Assembly (NCBI GenBank): GCA_949358305.1
Contig: OX442314.1
Coordinates: forward strand, 39,936,581-40,000,580
DNA length: 64,000 nucleotides
Source of the DNA: Strigamia acuminata
Taxonomy: Eukaryota > Arthropoda > Chilopoda > Geophilomorpha > Linotaeniidae
Direction of reading: 5' to 3'
The notes below the pieces were generated by a model, which was not told the origin of the DNA, did no database searches, and worked only from the letters and a program-made list of their open reading frames with translations. Both the position numbers and the translations under genes were made by a program. Below, one piece after another: positions 42,625-64,000 of the stretch (the stretch's first letter is position 1; each line of letters begins with the position of its first letter).

Positions 42625-43012
42625 TTGCAGGTTAATTCAACTGGTATGGTAATTGAGACAGAGAATCGAATGTGCATCGTGTGTGCTGATGAGGAGAAGT
42701 GCATCGCGCTTTTTCCGTGTAGACATGTGTGTTTGTGTCACAAGTGCCAATCACAGCTCCAAGTGCCAATCCAAGTGCCAATCCAAGTGCCAATCCAAGT
42801 GCCAATCCAAGTGCCAATCCAAGTGCCAATCCAAGTGCCAATCCAAGTGCCAATCCAAGTGCCAATCCAAGTGCCAATCCAAGTGCCAATCCAAGTGCCA
42901 ATCCAAGTGCCAATCCAAGTGCCAATCCAAGTGCCAATCCAAGTGCCAATCCAAGTGCCAATCCAAGTGCCAATCCAAGTGCCAATCACAGCTCATTTGC
43001 AGCAAATAATAA
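42625..43012 (+). CDS. C-terminal RING exon overrun by a 12-bp array
   Basis: Forward frame: [26 protein letters not shown] is the first two-thirds of an IAP/MULAN-type RING finger (E3 ligase module), with C-x2-C, C-R-H and C-x2-C in place. Directly after it, where the second zinc site should finish with CPxC, the sequence becomes an array of CAAGTGCCAATC reading VPIQ repeats, then a short tail and later stop. The final RING cysteines are therefore lost or displaced, so a ligase fold is unlikely unless another exon supplies them. Upstream exons were not found. Confidence 0.5.
42739..42990. repeat. 12-bp tandem array (about 20 units)
   Basis: CAAGTGCCAATC repeated about twenty times with almost no variation. 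It begins and ends with the variant unit GTGCCAATCACAGCTC, which shows expansion inside a once-short sequence. All six frames are open through it. Confidence 0.95.
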
Positions 43013-43569
43013 ATTTAAACCTGAAAAAACCTTTAGTGTTTTCTAGGGTGGAACAGTTACACAAGTTAACGACCACTCCCTTCTTATCAAACAGTAATAA
43101 CATCCAAAACATCGAACTGATAACATTAATTTCCTTAATTAAAAACTTCGTTTTTTTGAGTTAATTTCAAATATCATCCCCAGGTGTTCGCCTCGCCGCC
43201 ATTTTGTGAAAGTTGTTTTGATAAGAAAATGGAAATAAATTTTTTCTCTTCTTTTATTATCAAAAATCAGATTTAAAAAGAAAATCTTCACTTGAGAGGC
43301 GGATGACCTCGAATATAATCCTAATGAATGATATGCTTTCGGACAGTAATAATTGAGCTGGACGGCCATTTTTTTTTAAATTCTCTATTCAAAGGGGTCG
43401 CTATTTTAGTTTGATTAGACGTTGAATACATTAATTATAATTCTAGATATCTAAATGATGCTTGAGATTGAATTTATTTATTTATTTATTTTTTTTAAAT
43501 TTTATTAATTTATAAAATGCGATTCAATAAAAAAATGTTGCAAAAAGTGAAAATCCAACAAAAAAAAAA
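43013..43569. other. Unassigned; 3' flank of cullin copy C
   Basis: From about 43488 the sequence resembles the 3' flank of copy B (25290 onward), including a reverse-strand AATAAAATTT signal followed by an A-tract. The rest is unassigned. Confidence 0.4.
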
Positions 43570-44810
43570 TTAAGGAACGTACAATAATGTGTTGAAATCG
43601 GACGGATCTCTCGCCATGTAATTATTCTCGATGCACCATTCGACTTGCTCCTTGATCATCCTCTTGGTGGGCAAAAACATGTTTTTCAACAATACCACCA
43701 ACTCCATCTGCAACTGATCGCTCGCAATAGTCTTCCTCGTCTTCGCAACACGGACCAGCGCTTCTTGCACCCTCAGCTCCCTCAGTTGCACGATCTCTTC
43801 GTTCCCCGCCTCTCTACTCTCCATCGAAAGCTGCAAACGCCCGATCAGGTTCACTTTGCCCCGTTTCTGCTCTTTCCCATTCCGAACCAAAGCAAACTCG
43901 TCGTTTATCCAAAACTGCGACTCACGATTGAAACCCGACTGTGACTTTATTTCCGAGTCACACAACACAACGTTCCGTTTCAAACTCGTCGTCGTCGCAA
44001 CCAAAGTCCACATGATTTTCAGCAGTTCAGCTTCGGGCAGCTCGGTCGCCAATCGCAGATCCTCAAACCAAATTCGGTTGTTCGGACGCTCGTTCCATGC
44101 AAACAGCACCAACATTTGGAACGTCGTGACGTCCAGATCAAACTTACCCGCCGTATTTAAGACAGTAATCGTTGCAGTCGACAATTGATGGTCCCAAGTC
44201 AATTTCCTTCCATTGAACTTGCTATTGTACAATTTCTCCATCTCGCACACGTAATCCTCCAATTCGAGCGGCAGTGTCACAGCCATCTTGTTTCCCGGTC
44301 GCGACAAAGCGGTGTCGGTGAAAATCTTGACGTTGATCGAGTCTTTGATTTTCGGATTCGATTCTCTCAAGTCGCGATTGAAATCCACGCTCACTTGAAT
44401 GTCGTTGAACATCTTCGAGGCCCTGGAGAAGTATTCGGCCGGCATCCCAATGTCTTTCAACCACCCGATCATCTCTTCTTCCTTGTCCAGATCTGCCGAC
44501 GTGTCCAAGAGCAAACGCCTCGTTAAATGCGACTTCTAATAGATCATGTAAACGTCGACATTCGATACGAATTTGAGCAGCTGAACGGCGTCTTTCAACT
44601 TGCTGTCGACGTCCGCCGAAGTGAGTTTCTTGCTCATTGGCGACTTCCGTAACAACAAGTCGCAGTAGTTGGCCAACAACTCGGGGCATTTCGACTCGGC
44701 CGACGTTTTGTTTCTCACCCGCAGTTCCAATTGAAAGATGGTCGTGTCGTTGACGATTATTCTGAACGCCCTGTCTCTCGAAGTAAGAAATCGAGCGTCG
44801 TTTTCAAAAG
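43570..44810 (-). pseudogene. Cullin-5-like gene, copy C: 5'-truncated, premature TAG
   Basis: Holds the C-terminal half of the cullin (from AFENDARFLTSRDR to the end LLYVP), aligned with copies A and B. The 5' half is replaced at 44811 by a transposon end. TAG at 44536-44538 stands where copies A and B have a tyrosine codon TAC (VYMIYYKS). The RBX/NEDD8 region is otherwise intact. It lacks start and promoter, so it is a pseudogene. Confidence 0.88.
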
Positions 44811-47694: not shown

Positions 47695-48590
47695 GCTACA
47701 AGAGTACAAACCAACAAATTTCGGATTATTTTAACTGTAGTGTTAGAACAATCCAAAGGATTCGGAAACAGTGGAATGAAACAAATTCAGTGACCAGGAA
47801 AGAGGGCAGTGGAAGACCAATTGTTACATCCAATGTTGACAATGAAAGAATTTTTGCCCATTCTTTGCTCAATCCATTTCATCCGTCCAATAAGATAAGT
47901 CGACTTCTGGAACTAAGAGTGTCAGCCAGGACCATTAGGCGGCGTCTTGCCAGTATGGGACTTGGTGGACACATTGCTGCTGTTAAAGAACGCATTACGC
48001 AGCACCACAGAGATGCAAGATTGGAATTTGCAAATAATCATGCAAATTGGACAGTGTTGCAATGGCACTCTGTTCTATTTACTGATGAGTCATCAGTCCA
48101 AGTTGGAGGAAATGGGCAAATATGGGTTCGGCGTCCGGCAGGGGATCGTTTTGATCCTGCATTCATTGCTCCCAAAGTATAAAGTATAAACAATAATTTA
48201 AAATTATTTTTAATTTGTGCAAAACTTTTATAGATTTCAAGTGGTCGCTTTGCAGTGAACATTTGGAGTTGCATTTCCAGAACAGGACTTGGGCCTTTAC
48301 ATCGCATTGAAGGAAGGTTTAATTCCGAAAAATATACAGAAGTTCTGGAAACAGTCATGACTCATTATGCCACGGAAGTATTTGAGGGGACCAACTGGTT
48401 TTTCCAGCACGACAAACCTCCCATACACACATACACACATCACATTCTCAGAGTGGCAAAATGATAACTTAGACAAAATTGGTGCAGAAAACTTGATTTG
48501 GCCAGCAAAAGGAGCGGACATGAATCCCATGGAAAATGTTTGGGCCGTCCTGAAACGGAAACTGCGGTTTCAGGTATTGAAAGATTATTA
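47695..48590 (+). pseudogene. Tc1/mariner transposase (intron, one frameshift)
   Basis: Exon 1 (about 47695-48176) encodes the second half of the DNA-binding region (RTIQRIRKQWNETNSV, GSGRPIVTS, ARTIRRRL) and the first catalytic D in LFTDESSV. A 57-bp GT-AG intron separates it from exon 2 (48234 on) with WSCISRTGLGPL, second D in FFQHDKPPIHT, and a shifted frame giving WPAKGADMNPMENVW, which holds the third acidic residue. The frame change lies in a CACACAT run near 48430. N-terminal helix-turn-helix and inverted repeats are not seen. Inactive. Confidence 0.82.
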
Positions 48591-59030: not shown

Positions 59031-60364
59031 TATTTAAAGCGGACTTAATGAGTGAGATTGTAAACTCACGAACAACTGGGAATTTTTTGTTGAAGATGGT
59101 TAGAAAGGAATAAAGCTTGGCATGTAATCACTTGGAGCATGGCTAACAATCATGGAGACATTAGAACAAATTTAGACGATGTGAGAGACGAGTTGACCAC
59201 ACTCAGGGCACCACCATGACGCCCAACCTTGTGGGGAGACGATTTACCCACACACGATGACTGACACTGGACAGCCATCCAGATGTCAATACATAAACCA
59301 GAAAGATTTCATTTTGTAGACTTGAAAGTGTAAATAAAGATTCAGTTTAACTTTTGCCACGCTCCAAACAAGTCCTTTCAAACCTCACAAAGAACTAGGG
59401 AAAACTCAGAAAAACCTGGAAAAAACCTGGACTAGCTCGGAGAAACTCCCACCAAGGTAAAAACCTATTTGCATGGTGTCTAGAATACTAGCCATGTTTG
59501 TAGCTAATCTTTTACACCGTTTCTCGTGGACTGTGAATGTGAACCTCATTTGCGGGTTCTGGTCGGGGAAGATGCAAATTCGACTGAACTACATACGAGA
59601 AGCAAGGTTAGGCTGGCTCATGGAATTGAACTTGAAATTTTGGGAAATCTAGACCAAGTGGTTCCTATTATTAATCGAGATTTGGTACAACATTATCTCG
59701 GAACCGTGGGAGGCTCATTTGGAGAGGGCAGCACCAGCTGGGCGCCCTCTGGCAGGAAGTTTGGGTGACATACAGGCCACTCATCCCTTAGACAGTAACT
59801 TCATTTTTGACAGTCACATGTACAAATGCCTCACTCAAGATAGAAACTTGAGGTGTTATACAAAGATGGGATATTTGGCAGCAATGAAGGAAAAACAATT
59901 GAACAGGATCCCGACTGTGATTGCCAATCATAAAATATTGATGAATAAGAAATATCAGATTTATTCAGAGTTACTTAAGAGTGCGCCTGTAGTTTTTTGG
60001 AGGTATTTGGATCTAATTAAATTAGTTATAAAAATAAAACAAGTGTTCTTTTCTGTCTGATTATACACAAATGTCCAAGCACTAAGAAGTAGTTTGTTTT
60101 CGTTCAAAACAAGTTGAACAAGGAAACCTAGTTTTCATTTTTCTTGCAAATGTTTTCATTTTTCATTTTTCAATTTTCACTATTCGATCTGGTGATCGAG
60201 TGATGAAATAAACTGCTTTGTGATAGCGTTACTTCGAGACAACCCACAGCCACAATGTACCCTTATTGGAAGAATTATTGGGTGAGAAAAAAGGAACACA
60301 TCGGGCAAGATATCGCCAAAGTTTGAGTAAGTTGTTTAAGTATACCTGTCGAGATTTTCCAATT
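59031..60364. other. Unassigned
   Basis: Open frames at 59526-59768 and 59719-60060 have no recognisable domain. No transposon end was found. Confidence 0.3.
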
Positions 60365-60525
60365 GGAAAATGGTAAAATTTTATCAAAATCAATTAAAAA
60401 ATGGTAAAATCTCAGCAAAATCAATTAAAAAATGGTAAAATTTCAGCAAAATCAAGTGAAAAATGGTAAAATTTCAGCAAAATCAAGTGAAAAATGGTAA
60501 AATTTCAGCAAAATCAATTAAAGTA
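60365..60525. repeat. ~32-bp tandem repeat (about 5 units)
   Basis: Unit AATGGTAAAATTTCAGCAAA followed by ATCAATTAAAA or ATCAAGTGAAA. Confidence 0.85.
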
Positions 60526-61271
60526 AATATCTGATAATGTTTTTGAAAAGTTAGCTGCAACTATAAAAATACACATTGCTAAAGTAAAGATAAAATAAAA
60601 GTAAAAAAAAAAAATTTGATGTTTTATTTTTTTCTTTGTTTGCTCAGGTAGGGAAGACGCCCCCTGTGGTAGCGTCATTCATAGGTGACCCACAACCACA
60701 ACGCACCGCTACTGACGCAACTACATGGCGAAAATATATTAACGAGTCTCCTAATAAAAGTTTCTATAGGAGCGCATCGAGCAAGGAATTGTCAAAGTTG
60801 ATGATGTTGTGGTGACCTCAAATATTCCTATTTGAGTGCGCACCATATTTCCAAATTGTCTTATAAACATATTCAACAAACTTATATGTTTTGTTTCAAT
60901 GTAAATTGAAATAAAACATACATTAATAAAATATAAAACAAGACACAATATTACCCAAATAATATTGTGTTTTGCAGCAAGTTTTGGCCCAGCAACAGCG
61001 TCAACCAATCGCGCTGCAGCGTGCATTGCTTTGATGATGCTGCTAGGCGTGTGCCTGGGCGGAGCATCCCTTCCCCTCGCGCGTGCCCGGCTCGATTGTT
61101 GCACACGACCCGAAGGCGGCCGTGTGTGATCTTCATGCAACTCGTCATCTGCGCAGCTTTTCTGAGCAGATTTAGAAGTGAGCCAAACGGTTTTGGCCCA
61201 CTCTTCCCGCACTCTTGATTCCACCTCCAAACTGTTCACAACCGTGTCAAACTTCTGCCAAAACTGCAAAG
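60526..61271. other. Flank of the second gypsy element; possible minus-strand exon
   Basis: On the minus strand a TTTGCAG acceptor (about 61263) opens a frame with FWQKFDTVVNSLEVESRV and continues to about 61100 without recognisable domain. The coding call is weak. Confidence 0.25.
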
Positions 61272-61885
61272 TGTGATCTGTGATTCTTGGACGAATTGAG
61301 TTTCATCGCTGGTCTGTACCCACTGTACGGAATAGCAACTTTCTAGCTTGAATTACTACGAGTAATTTAAGCCATTTCTGTGTGTGAAACTAACATCGAG
61401 TTTACTCTGTTAGTTTGAAGGCTTTGTGTCGAGTTTAACTCCACAAGGCGAATTGTGTTAAGACGGATTGTTACGTCGAGCTTGCTCCGTAATAATCAAA
61501 TCGCTGTGTGCAAGACGTATTCTCGTGTTGAGCTTGCTCCGCGAGGATTTTTAGTATATTTTAGCAAAGTATTTTAGCGTCGAGTTTACTCCGCTAAAAT
61601 CCCGCGCTCACACGACGCCATCGACGCCATTTTGGAGCCAACGGTCAACTGTGAGTGTCCAAGTACGAAGAGAAACCAGATCGACCCAGTCATTACACTT
61701 ATTATTTCGCATTATATTCGGGTGTATTTAAAACGATTAAAACAATCTAATTTTTCCTTTACTCTGTGTAAAATCATTCCCCTAGACAACCATTTGGCCA
61801 CAGAGTAGAAGTCCTGTACGGCATCTCACCGACGATTGCTTATTAAATTTATATAATTTAATAAGTAAAAACCCGGATCGCCGCA
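61272..61885 (+). repeat. 5' LTR of a second Ty3/gypsy element
   Basis: Ends in CGCCGCA two bases before a tRNA-Pro-like primer site. A plausible start is TGTGATCTGTG at 61272; the 3' LTR is outside the window, so the left border is unproven. Contains the hairpin string at 61346-61600. Confidence 0.65.
61346..61600 (+). other. String of six hairpins; five share an apical motif
   Basis: Hairpin 0: 61346-61372, 12-bp stem (GCTTGAATTACT/AGTAATTTAAGC), loop ACG. Hairpins 1-5: stems at 61387-61395/61408-61416, 61421-61428/61442-61449, 61466-61475/61488-61497, 61519-61527/61540-61548 and 61571-61579/61592-61600. The enclosed sequences are TCGAGTTTACTC, TCGAGTTTAACTC, TCGAGCTTGCTC, TTGAGCTTGCTC and TCGAGTTTACTC. 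Stems are 8-10 bp and differ in sequence, with only three non-Watson-Crick types of exception (G-T pairs). Confidence 0.85.
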
Positions 61886-61887
61886 CT

Positions 61888-61905
61888 TGGGGGCCCGGCC
61901 GGGAT
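61888..61905 (+). promoter_or_regulatory. Primer binding site, tRNA-Pro type (element 2)
   Basis: TGGGGGCCCGGCCGGGAT, two bases after the LTR end; one base different from the site of the first element. Confidence 0.78.
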
Positions 61906-61977
61906 TGTTTTGATTATTAAAATCCGATTTTTGCGAAAAAATCCTTTATTTCCATTGTTCTTTTTCAATTTGACAAA

Positions 61978-64000
61978 ATGGCGACGCCAATGCAAATTGT
62001 AAAACGACAACGAGGTCGACCAAGCACTCAGAAACGAGCAGCGACGGTTTTGCCGGCTCTCGAGCCTGAAATGCTTATGGAGAAAATTATTTCTGAAGAA
62101 ATAACACCAGTTCCAGATCCGAAACAACTTAAGGATGCTGAAAATGAAGTTGCTAGAGCATTAAGCGCTTCAAGTGCGAGTTCTAACGACCAAGAACTCC
62201 CGCCACTTCCACTGGAGGAAGTGGAAAATACGTTACGTGAAATGGAAAGTGAATCGTCTCACGAATCACCTCCTCGCATGACCATGTTGGATGCTTTGAG
62301 AAATCAAGCACGCCAAGATGGCGCCCAAATAACGGACGACATGACGGTGGAAGAGATTCATCGCGCCATGATACGACTTCACACTGACCGAGCCGTTTCA
62401 AATTTACAATTTGAAATGGAACGAAAAGAAGCTGAGCTTCAACAACAAAAAGCGGAGGTTGAGCTTCAACACATGGAACTCAATCGACAAAATGAGGAAT
62501 TTCTAGCCCAAAAAGCTAGAGAATACAGATTAAAAGGTGAAGTGGAAGATCTTTCTAAAATGAATACTAGAAATGAACTTTCAATTCGCTCACACCAAGA
62601 GGCGCGAAGACAGCTCGAGCTTACCAAAAGTAAGCTGGAGCAGAAAAATAAAGAATTGATTGATTTGGCAGACCACTACCAACGCAATCATAATCAACTA
62701 GTGAGATATGCTGCTGAATTAGACACACGTGCTAAAACACAGCGTACTCGCGAAAGCAAAATAGCTAAGCGTGAAGACGAGATTTTCCACTCGCTGGATC
62801 AACCCAGTACGAGCGGACAAGTCAAGTCTAGCGGCCCTGCTAAGCGATTACAACCAGAATCGCAAAATCAAATAAACGAGAATGAAATTCTCCGAGCTGA
62901 TTTGTTACGCGCTCAAGAAGAGCTTGCAGAAATGAAAGACCGTTTGCAAGCAAGAAATTATACTGACCAATTGGTGCAACCAGAAATGGCTGCGCCAACT
63001 GTCCCTATTTTGACTCCCGAAACAATAACAATTTCTGTTGTTTCAGAGTTAAGTAGCCAATCTGGATTATCGAGTGATGACGACCAACGTTCGCGTCGTC
63101 GCCATCGCTCAAAAAGAAAACGTCCTTCAGATTCTGAGGAACGGAGAGCTGATCGCAATCCGCTCCCTGGTAATCGAAACCCTATTTTTCACAACAGTGA
63201 CCGACTGTTGGGGATAGTAGACGATCGAAATAGACGGCATGAAACTGGTATTCATGTTACTCGAACGATACCACTGACTCAACAGCAAGACTCGTCAAAA
63301 AGAAGTCGACGAGACACCAATCCAACACGCGAACCGCCGGACGGACATGAAAGCCCGCCAGGTGGGGGTCAGTATAGAAGAAATCCACCAGATGGAGGAA
63401 ATCCAGATGGACATGGAGATGGACCACCTGGAGGTGGACGTCGACCGCCCGACGATGACGGCGACCCACCCGACCCACCTGAAACACCACATTTTAACAC
63501 GCCTTCAAATTCACAATCTGATTCAAGGTCGGATTCTGATGTGAATGCGCAACAAGAACGCGATAATCGACATCGATCTCATCGACGTCGACATCGAGGC
63601 CATTCTTCTCGGCGTAATACACATTATTACACTGCTGAAGAAATTGATCGATTATTAGCTGATCGTCGATCTTCCGATCGATCTGACGCTACTGCCGATA
63701 ATGCTGATATTGCATTACGACAAAAAATTGCACAATATACTGCCAACAACTGGACTCACGATCTAGTTGATGAAAGAACTATTAGATGGGATCACATCAA
63801 ACCCGCTTTATTCGATGGAGAATGGGAAGCTGGATCCACTCTTTTAGATGAAGTGTTACGAATTTCAAGGTTGAATGGCATTGCATGTCACACTGCTTTG
63901 AAAAGAGTAGTACCAAAAGCTCTTATAGATCGAGCTGAGAAATGGTTTTATTCTAAACAATTTCAAAACTGGAATCACTTTGTAGAGGAATTCATGACTG
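61978..64000 (+). CDS. gag of the second gypsy element (open to window end)
   Basis: ATG at 61978-61980, about 73 bp after the primer site; no stop in 674 codons to base 64000. Same architecture as the first element's Gag: AT-hook-like RQRGRPSTQKR (residues 10-20), the MTMLDALRNQAR ... MTVEEIHRAM module (about 100-130), a long coiled coil (about 135-260), a Lys/Arg cluster (RRRHRSKRKR), Gly/Pro/Asp-rich linkers, an Arg/His/Ser-rich stretch and the beginning of a capsid-like region (AEKWFYSKQF). Here the codon aligned with the stop of element 1 is TGG. Gag forms the particle and binds genomic RNA. The open frame suggests a younger or intact element. Confidence 0.82.
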   Translation, partial: MATPMQIVKRQRGRPSTQKRAATVLPALEPEMLMEKIISEEITPVPDPKQLKDAENEVARALSASSASSNDQELPPLPLEEVENTLREMESESSHESPPRMTMLDALRNQARQDGAQITDDMTVEEIHRAMIRLHTDRAVSNLQFEMERKEAELQQQKAEVELQHMELNRQNEEFLAQKAREYRLKGEVEDLSKMNTRNELSIRSHQEARRQLELTKSKLEQKNKELIDLADHYQRNHNQLVRYAAELDTRAKTQRTRESKIAKREDEIFHSLDQPSTSGQVKSSGPAKRLQPESQNQINENEILRADLLRAQEELAEMKDRLQARNYTDQLVQPEMAAPTVPILTPETITISVVSELSSQSGLSSDDDQRSRRRHRSKRKRPSDSEERRADRNPLPGNRNPIFHNSDRLLGIVDDRNRRHETGIHVTRTIPLTQQQDSSKRSRRDTNPTREPPDGHESPPGGGQYRRNPPDGGNPDGHGDGPPGGGRRPPDDDGDPPDPPETPHFNTPSNSQSDSRSDSDVNAQQERDNRHRSHRRRHRGHSSRRNTHYYTAEEIDRLLADRRSSDRSDATADNADIALRQKIAQYTANNWTHDLVDERTIRWDHIKPALFDGEWEAGSTLLDEVLRISRLNGIACHTALKRVVPKALIDRAEKWFYSKQFQNWNHFVEEFMT

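Follow-up and report, generated by a model that had tools for sequence, protein, structure and literature searches.

Why should five consecutive hairpins in one LTR of a Strigamia acuminata retrotransposon share almost the same apex, on lower stems that differ from one another and yet pair? The original prediction, made from the window (the whole 64,000-nucleotide stretch of DNA analyzed), was that selection had acted on the structure of RNA or of single-stranded DNA. To judge it one has to ask what the hairpins are, what element carries them, whether pairing has been kept while sequence changed, on which strand and in which transcript it would matter, and what might read the array.

Architecture of the hairpins

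All the hairpins are read from the forward strand. A 12-bp hairpin without the conserved apex, H0 (61346..61372), is followed by H1 (61387..61416; 9-bp lower stem, UC bulge, apex GAGU-UU-ACUC), H2 (61421..61449; 8 bp, UC, GAGU-UUA-ACUC), H3 (61466..61497; 10 bp, UC, GAGC-UU-GCUC), H4 (61519..61548; 9 bp, UU, GAGC-UU-GCUC) and H5 (61571..61600; 9 bp, UC, GAGU-UU-ACUC). H1–H5 follow one plan: 8–10 pairs make up the lower stem, 2 nt bulge out of the 5′ arm and none out of the 3′ arm, and in the apex, GAG-YUUR-CUC, the Y-R pair encloses a UU tip (UUA in H2). The five hairpins and the one preceding them form where they had been predicted, both singly and in the regional fold: the minimum-free-energy structure of 61340-61610 (−85 kcal/mol, z −4.90) contains H1–H5 together with H0. 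None of 200 shuffles folds as well. Folded singly, H1 to H5 reach −8.8, −13.0, −10.8, −11.4 and −9.7 kcal/mol, respectively (z −2.4 to −4.6).

Some of the predicted regularities need qualification. The shared apex of 12–13 nt is present as GAG-YUUR-CUC in all five, with one extra loop A in H2 (GAGTTTAACTC), and the covariation within it, GAGT..ACTC in hairpins 1, 2 and 5 versus GAGC..GCTC in 3 and 4, is as described. The bulge, said to be a constant TC, is TC in H1, H2, H3 and H5 and TT in H4, and across 39 unique hairpins it is TC in 23, TT in 15 and TA in one; since it varies between TC and TT (judged by eye), kissing-loop dimerization through the bulge was set aside. That the lower stems are unrelated is right for pairs such as H1 and H4 and too strong for H3–H5, where the surrounding 30-nt units are 67–80% identical at a spacing of 52 nt and so probably derive from one duplicated unit. 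Simple tandem duplication alone is nevertheless rejected, since the stems differ and yet stay paired. A covariance model finds only H1–H5 in the 64-kb window at E ≤ 10, its training set having itself included H1, H3, H4 and H5. Within the element its matches are confined to the LTR, with none in the window after the LTR, in the downstream sequences L009 and L010, or in L011 outside the LTR. Rfam has no match in the window at gathering score.

The element

The LTR that carries the array (60808..61885, forward strand) is 1078 bp long, runs from TG to CA and has the same sequence as the 3′ LTR (L011:643-1720), so the insertion is recent. Both are flanked on their outer sides by ATGT, a short target duplication, and a purine tract precedes the second; the copies are spaced 11,755 bp apart, making an element of ∼12.8 kb with one LTR included. 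The order of its pol domains by Pfam (RT, RNase H, integrase) is that of Ty3, the best match of pol among solved structures is Ty3 Gag-Pol (E 4e-112), and the best 120 protein relatives listed, out of 7979 candidates scored from a set of 5.8 billion, are 32–48% identical over the aligned part. Peptide patterns of the RT region gave no match among the viral contigs searched. The element is a young Ty3/gypsy (Metaviridae) LTR retrotransposon, and the gypsy assignment of the hairpin-bearing LTR is thereby borne out.

Directly after the LTR, by its place, stands a candidate primer binding site (61886..61907, forward strand); ARAGORN found no priming tRNA around three of its eight genomic matches. 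The Gag open reading frame begins at 61978, runs on the forward strand to the window's end at 64000 and continues into L009, where Pfam recognizes a CCHC zinc knuckle; residues 371–390 are arginine-rich. Its first 674 residues (window 61978-64000) have no Pfam match and no protein relative at E ≤ 0.001 among 7996 candidates scored, and part of this piece does match a copy of another LTR family, B (see below), in the same genome. A third open reading frame, ORF3, lies further downstream in the element, beyond the window (L010:1824-3500, the open frame continuing in L011:1-468). It has long arginine/serine-rich stretches, its main piece has neither a Pfam match nor a relative at E ≤ 0.001 among 7997 candidates scored, and since no 19-residue window exceeds 1.6 on the Kyte-Doolittle scale, that is, none is transmembrane-like, its product does not look like an envelope. 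AATAAA occurs at 60910 and again at 60925 and could place the poly(A) signal in U3; from the sequence we lean instead to ATTAAA at 61842.

As to the surroundings, a 31-bp tandem repeat (5.3 copies, 92% matches; 60360-60522) lies ∼300 bp upstream of the LTR. Elsewhere the window holds the C-terminal part of a Cullin with its neddylation domain (43570-44514, reverse strand), a RING-type zinc finger with a long tandem repeat of PIQV type after it (42625-43164, forward strand) and a fragment with a Tc3-type transposase helix-turn-helix (47790-48182, forward strand). The wider genome has 20178 overlapping matches of TTAGG/TCAGG type, in long telomere arrays, against 23 for the control; these, and a COX1 read with the invertebrate mitochondrial code, are as expected of an arthropod.

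Compensation among copies of the LTR

The original prediction was that pairing is kept while sequence changes, and that other copies of the LTR would tell. Nineteen copies of the window's own family (family A), hand-picked as representatives of its loci and 76–97% identical to the window, were compared at the same alignment positions for the 65 pairs of H1–H5, the rows not being chosen for pairing. After 14 of 1235 cells with gaps were dropped, 1211 of 1221 base-pair cells are kept paired; when the partners are shifted by 1–3 columns as a control, 36–45% of cells pair. Distinct differences from the window pairs comprise eight double Watson-Crick changes, four single Watson-Crick changes, eight single changes to G-U and eight broken pairs, four of the latter being A-C. 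Uncompensated stem mutations therefore exist and are few, and with eight double compensations the expectation of selected structure withstands the refutation that it had named. These counts exclude L031, whose LTR match stops after H2; including it raises the distinct broken types in H1–H5 from eight in all to 21 single and 10 double ones. H0 has five distinct single breaks and one double break among the copies (20 rows).

A second comparison took 32 of the 39 unique hairpins, namely those of 30 nt, omitting seven 31-nt forms of hairpin 2. Here 98.1% of cells are paired, a figure biased upward because a row needed seven or more of its nine lower pairs to be included. Cells changed on both sides number 118 against a shuffle mean of 39.9 (none of 500 shuffles being as high), and the covariation score is 0.746 against 0.244 in shuffles. 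The number of doubly changed pairs and the number of pair types are not above those in shuffles (154 and 118 of 500, respectively, being as high), so that two of five measures fail to exceed their controls. Shared descent of the copies and possible exchange among tandem hairpins also make the independent compensation events fewer than the counts. One LTR, L042, has both forms of H1 side by side, and such exchange may therefore explain some of the H1 difference; the differences in H5 and H2 sit at the same places of the LTR alignment.

The apex elsewhere in the genome

How widely does the apex occur? The pattern TCGAGYTTRCTC has 657 matches in the 237-Mb genome against 37 for the reversed pattern. 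Mixed closing pairs account for 37 of the 657, namely 5 of TCGAGCTTACTC (control 5) and 32 of TCGAGTTTGCTC (control 14), against 19 for their reversed patterns together; the other 620 thus have C..G or T..A as the apex closing pair. The first 100 places listed were grouped by hand, within 1 kb, into 62 loci, of which 51 were fetched (one, L079, being the same place as L015), the other 11 being copies already known, partner LTRs or a close neighbor. A stemmed hairpin is present in 37 of the 51 and absent from 14. The 37 resemble LTRs of one or other of three families, A, B and C, the LTR status of C being probable, and no host gene was recognized among the 51. The 14 stemless loci, six of them of the mixed form TCGAGTTTGCTC, fit chance or other repeats.

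Families B and C have no blastn match to the window LTR at E 1e-4. Family B (L035, L036, L039, L056, L063 and 12 further loci, two of which repeat L039 and L056) has LTRs of 1.4 kb, two copies of which, 99.4% identical over 1396 bp, stand 7.5 kb apart with Gag between them; pol was not seen in the 3 kb retrieved there, and B is classed by its Gag. Identity between the A and B Gag pieces is 48% across 97 residues and 33% across 284. Both families begin the LTR with TGTGGTGACC and have a common block towards its end, and in three loci the primer-site region is shared as well. Family C consists of L046 (the same as L094) and fragments, and only three of its 12 loci (L097, L100 and L101) have, with at most one error, both the start and the end block on the same strand. 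L046 aligns with B loci over up to 134 nt, its first hairpin included, and the two families are therefore not independent.

At E ≤ 1 the covariance model finds the hairpin in all 12 B loci examined, eight at 36.1 bits and four, with one extra loop T, at 27.3. Seven of the 12 C loci also give a match (20.4 to 39.6 bits), and L097, L098, L101, L102 and L105 give none at that threshold. As the model, R1, includes the hairpin of L035 and two from L046, matches on those or on identical sequences are partly by construction. The lower stems differ from those of A, examples being AGAGCGCCA/TGGTACTCT and TGAGTCCCG/CGGAACTCG, and 90.4% of their cells are paired over 17 distinct rows, which were fitted to the model; one pair is unpaired in 10 of 16 rows. 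The bulge is present in both families and is longer in L095. The same apex thus recurs in two more LTR families on different, mostly paired stems. By eye, a variant apex, GAC-UU-GUC, is found in C and, less exactly, in B, and when the variant-apex hairpin of L104 is folded singly its mini-stem does not form. The B and C regions fold better than 100 of 100 shuffles (z −4.76 and −4.10); taken singly, their hairpins exceed shuffles in stability only slightly (z −1.8 to −2.2), and other pairings sometimes take the place of one of the two hairpins when C copies are folded. Hairpin number varies: L042 has seven, the window five and the C copies L094, L099 and L100 two each, and a fixed number is thus not required.

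Family B has one hairpin of the GAG-YUUR-CUC kind and two with a second constant apex on differing lower stems. The second apex, CCTGCGAGCTTTACTCCGG, is seen in L039 in two hairpins at positions 868 and 1043, counted along its reverse strand, and their stems are altered on both sides in other B copies.

Strand and probable place in the transcript

Among the 19 family A copies there are 65 G-U cells against four A-C cells (eight against four among distinct single changes), which points to pairing kept in the sense RNA. The array also lies in a forward-strand stretch of 840 nt free of ATG (61138..61977) that ends at the gag ATG (61978), the last preceding ATG starting at 61135. Between 61140 and 61977 there is no ATG, where 300 dinucleotide shuffles average 11.3 and always contain at least one; the antisense word CAT occurs there 12 times. 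The part upstream (60808-61139), with five ATGs against 10.2 in shuffles, is also ATG-poor, which leaves the argument strong though not clean. In the matching part of the 19 family A copies there are no ATGs in seven, one in 10 and two in two, with 9–16 CATs. Among B copies L087 has 1044 nt without ATG before gag, and L092 has an ATG 35 nt past the start of its apex; around the C hairpins there are ATG-free gaps of 921 nt (L094), 540 nt (L100) and 564 nt (L095), and none such in L099. To judge by sequence, the pattern mostly resembles a scanned 5′ leader, and the CCAAT at 61005 and GGGCGG at 61057 would fit a promoter upstream of the array. With 840 nt lacking ATG before gag, the array is probably transcribed as part of the 5′ leader of the element's RNA. 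Of the two alternatives originally left side by side, RNA is therefore favored over single-stranded DNA, by the wobble asymmetry and by the ATG-free site before gag. Constraint on the hairpins at the RNA level is well supported, and we have little doubt of it.

What might read the array?

A constant bulge and tip on free stems, as in RNA phage signals, is the plan of a protein recognition head. Our main reading, to which we give a probability of about 0.4, is that the array presents several copies of one recognition site on the RNA, that the protein which reads them is most likely Gag of the element itself, and that they serve packaging. It would be a cis-acting element of a Ty3/gypsy 5′ leader in which near-identical heads, each a 5′ pyrimidine bulge and a GAG-YUUR-CUC mini-stem with a UU tip, are borne on interchangeable stems that need only pair. 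Several copies of one RNA-binding protein would dock there. If that protein is Gag, its zinc knuckle or its arginine-rich stretch would recognize bulge and tip, and several Gag molecules would collect on the full-length RNA and nucleate packaging. Gag heads the candidates because of the probable leader position, the CCHC knuckle and the arginine-rich stretch; what would tie it to the array is location and analogy. The RS-rich ORF3 product may be ranked second among candidate readers and a host protein third. As family B has one such hairpin and two with another apex, Gag would have to tolerate variants.

Could the reader be ORF3? The array might then be a trans-activation or nuclear-export site bound, in the manner of Rev or Tat, by this accessory protein. 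We think this unlikely: its RS-rich stretches, its unenvelope-like character and the lack of Pfam matches or relatives for its main piece among the 7997 candidates scored would suit such a role, as would the likeness in plan between a row of bulged hairpins close to where the RNA would begin and the repeated TAR stem-loops of HIV-2, but ORF3 is only a candidate binder. Rather improbable too is a site for a host RNA-binding protein concerned with stability, localization, export or silencing, whether hijacked by the element or aimed at it. Persistence of the same apex between families whose Gag pieces are 33–48% identical is what would be expected of a conserved host reader; against it, the 37 stemmed loci look like LTRs of the three families and none of the 51 fetched was recognized as a host gene.

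Translational control, with the array slowing or shunting scanning ribosomes in a long leader or acting as an IRES for Gag, would account for its place upstream of the gag ATG in an ATG-free stretch. The absence of ATG fits plain scanning, however, so that internal entry is not needed, and a mere barrier would presumably not need a constant apex sequence; this explanation we hold to be distinctly unlikely.

Is selection on structure needed at all? Quasi-palindromes could in principle be kept paired by template switching during reverse transcription, one arm being copied onto the other, which could produce linked double changes like the ones that H1 shows in L014. Arm-to-arm copying should, however, erase wobble pairs and bulge. 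The G-U cells persist, at 65 to four A-C, the bulge begins with T in all 39 unique hairpins (its 2-nt offset being part of the search) and is also there in B and C, and the apex is kept across families, which makes the explanation very improbable. A DNA-level element, either palindromic protein-binding sites or an insulator, is suggested by the repetition of a short motif within an LTR element, which the Drosophila gypsy insulator also shows, and is scarcely tenable, since constraint independent of strand and pairing was not what was found: the lower stems differ between hairpins yet pair with compensating changes, the excess of G-U over A-C is a strand asymmetry, and the bulge persists.

To return to recognition by a protein of the element, it is tentatively proposed, at somewhat less than even odds, that an arthropod Ty3/gypsy clade has a modular RNA docking array read by element-coded Gag or by the RS-rich ORF3, with a constant bulge-and-tip head, freely replaceable stems and two to seven copies in the LTRs seen, or in B one copy together with two of the second apex. 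If so, an MS2-like or Tat/TAR-like RNA-protein system would have evolved outside retroviruses. The five repeated heads, the natural variants and the many young copies are a ready-made mutational series for finding the reader of the array. If Gag is that reader, the array would be a compact, element-specific RNA tag, and would make it possible to ask whether retrotransposons, too, assemble capsids on repeated signals. A 2016 review describes Ty packaging sequences as not precisely defined and Ty3 RNA structure as uncharacterized (PMC4974528). Among the matches listed from the open-access literature, judged by title or the opening of the abstract, there is no such hairpin array; the original claim that no element of this form had been described is not contradicted there, and a description may exist elsewhere.

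Comparison with known systems

Several known elements share part of the plan. The Drosophila gypsy insulator is a short motif repeated near the 5′ end of a gypsy-class element; it is a DNA site, whereas the pairing and G-U use of the array point to RNA. In the constitutive transport element of simple retroviruses a constant unpaired motif is repeated on less constant stems, the motif forming internal loops within one long stem towards the 3′ end; the array is instead a row of hairpins and, as noted above, the window has no Rfam match. Lentiviral TAR has a pyrimidine bulge below a short apical stem and, in HIV-2, occurs as tandem copies near the RNA 5′ end. The array is like it in the first respect and probably in the second, and differs in having a UU tip in place of a larger loop and in that no Tat is known in the element; the likeness is one of plan, and no kinship of sequence or protein is claimed.

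With retroviral psi and the leaders of Ty1 and Ty3 the array has in common a structured 5′ region, probably the leader, beside a candidate primer binding site, and a Gag with a CCHC motif. Known psi hairpins differ from one another, whereas in the array one head is repeated.

RNA phages offer a further comparison. In their packaging stem-loops, as set out in one account (PMC6281560), the part recognized is a 5′ bulge base together with the apical loop, and there are several per genome. The array resembles the MS2 TR and the dispersed phage packaging signals in its repeated stem-loops with a 5′ bulge and an apical loop, and binding by a capsid protein, here Gag, would be the analogous step. The phage copies are dispersed through the genome, whereas those of the array are clustered in an LTR and have a 2-nt pyrimidine bulge and a UU tip.
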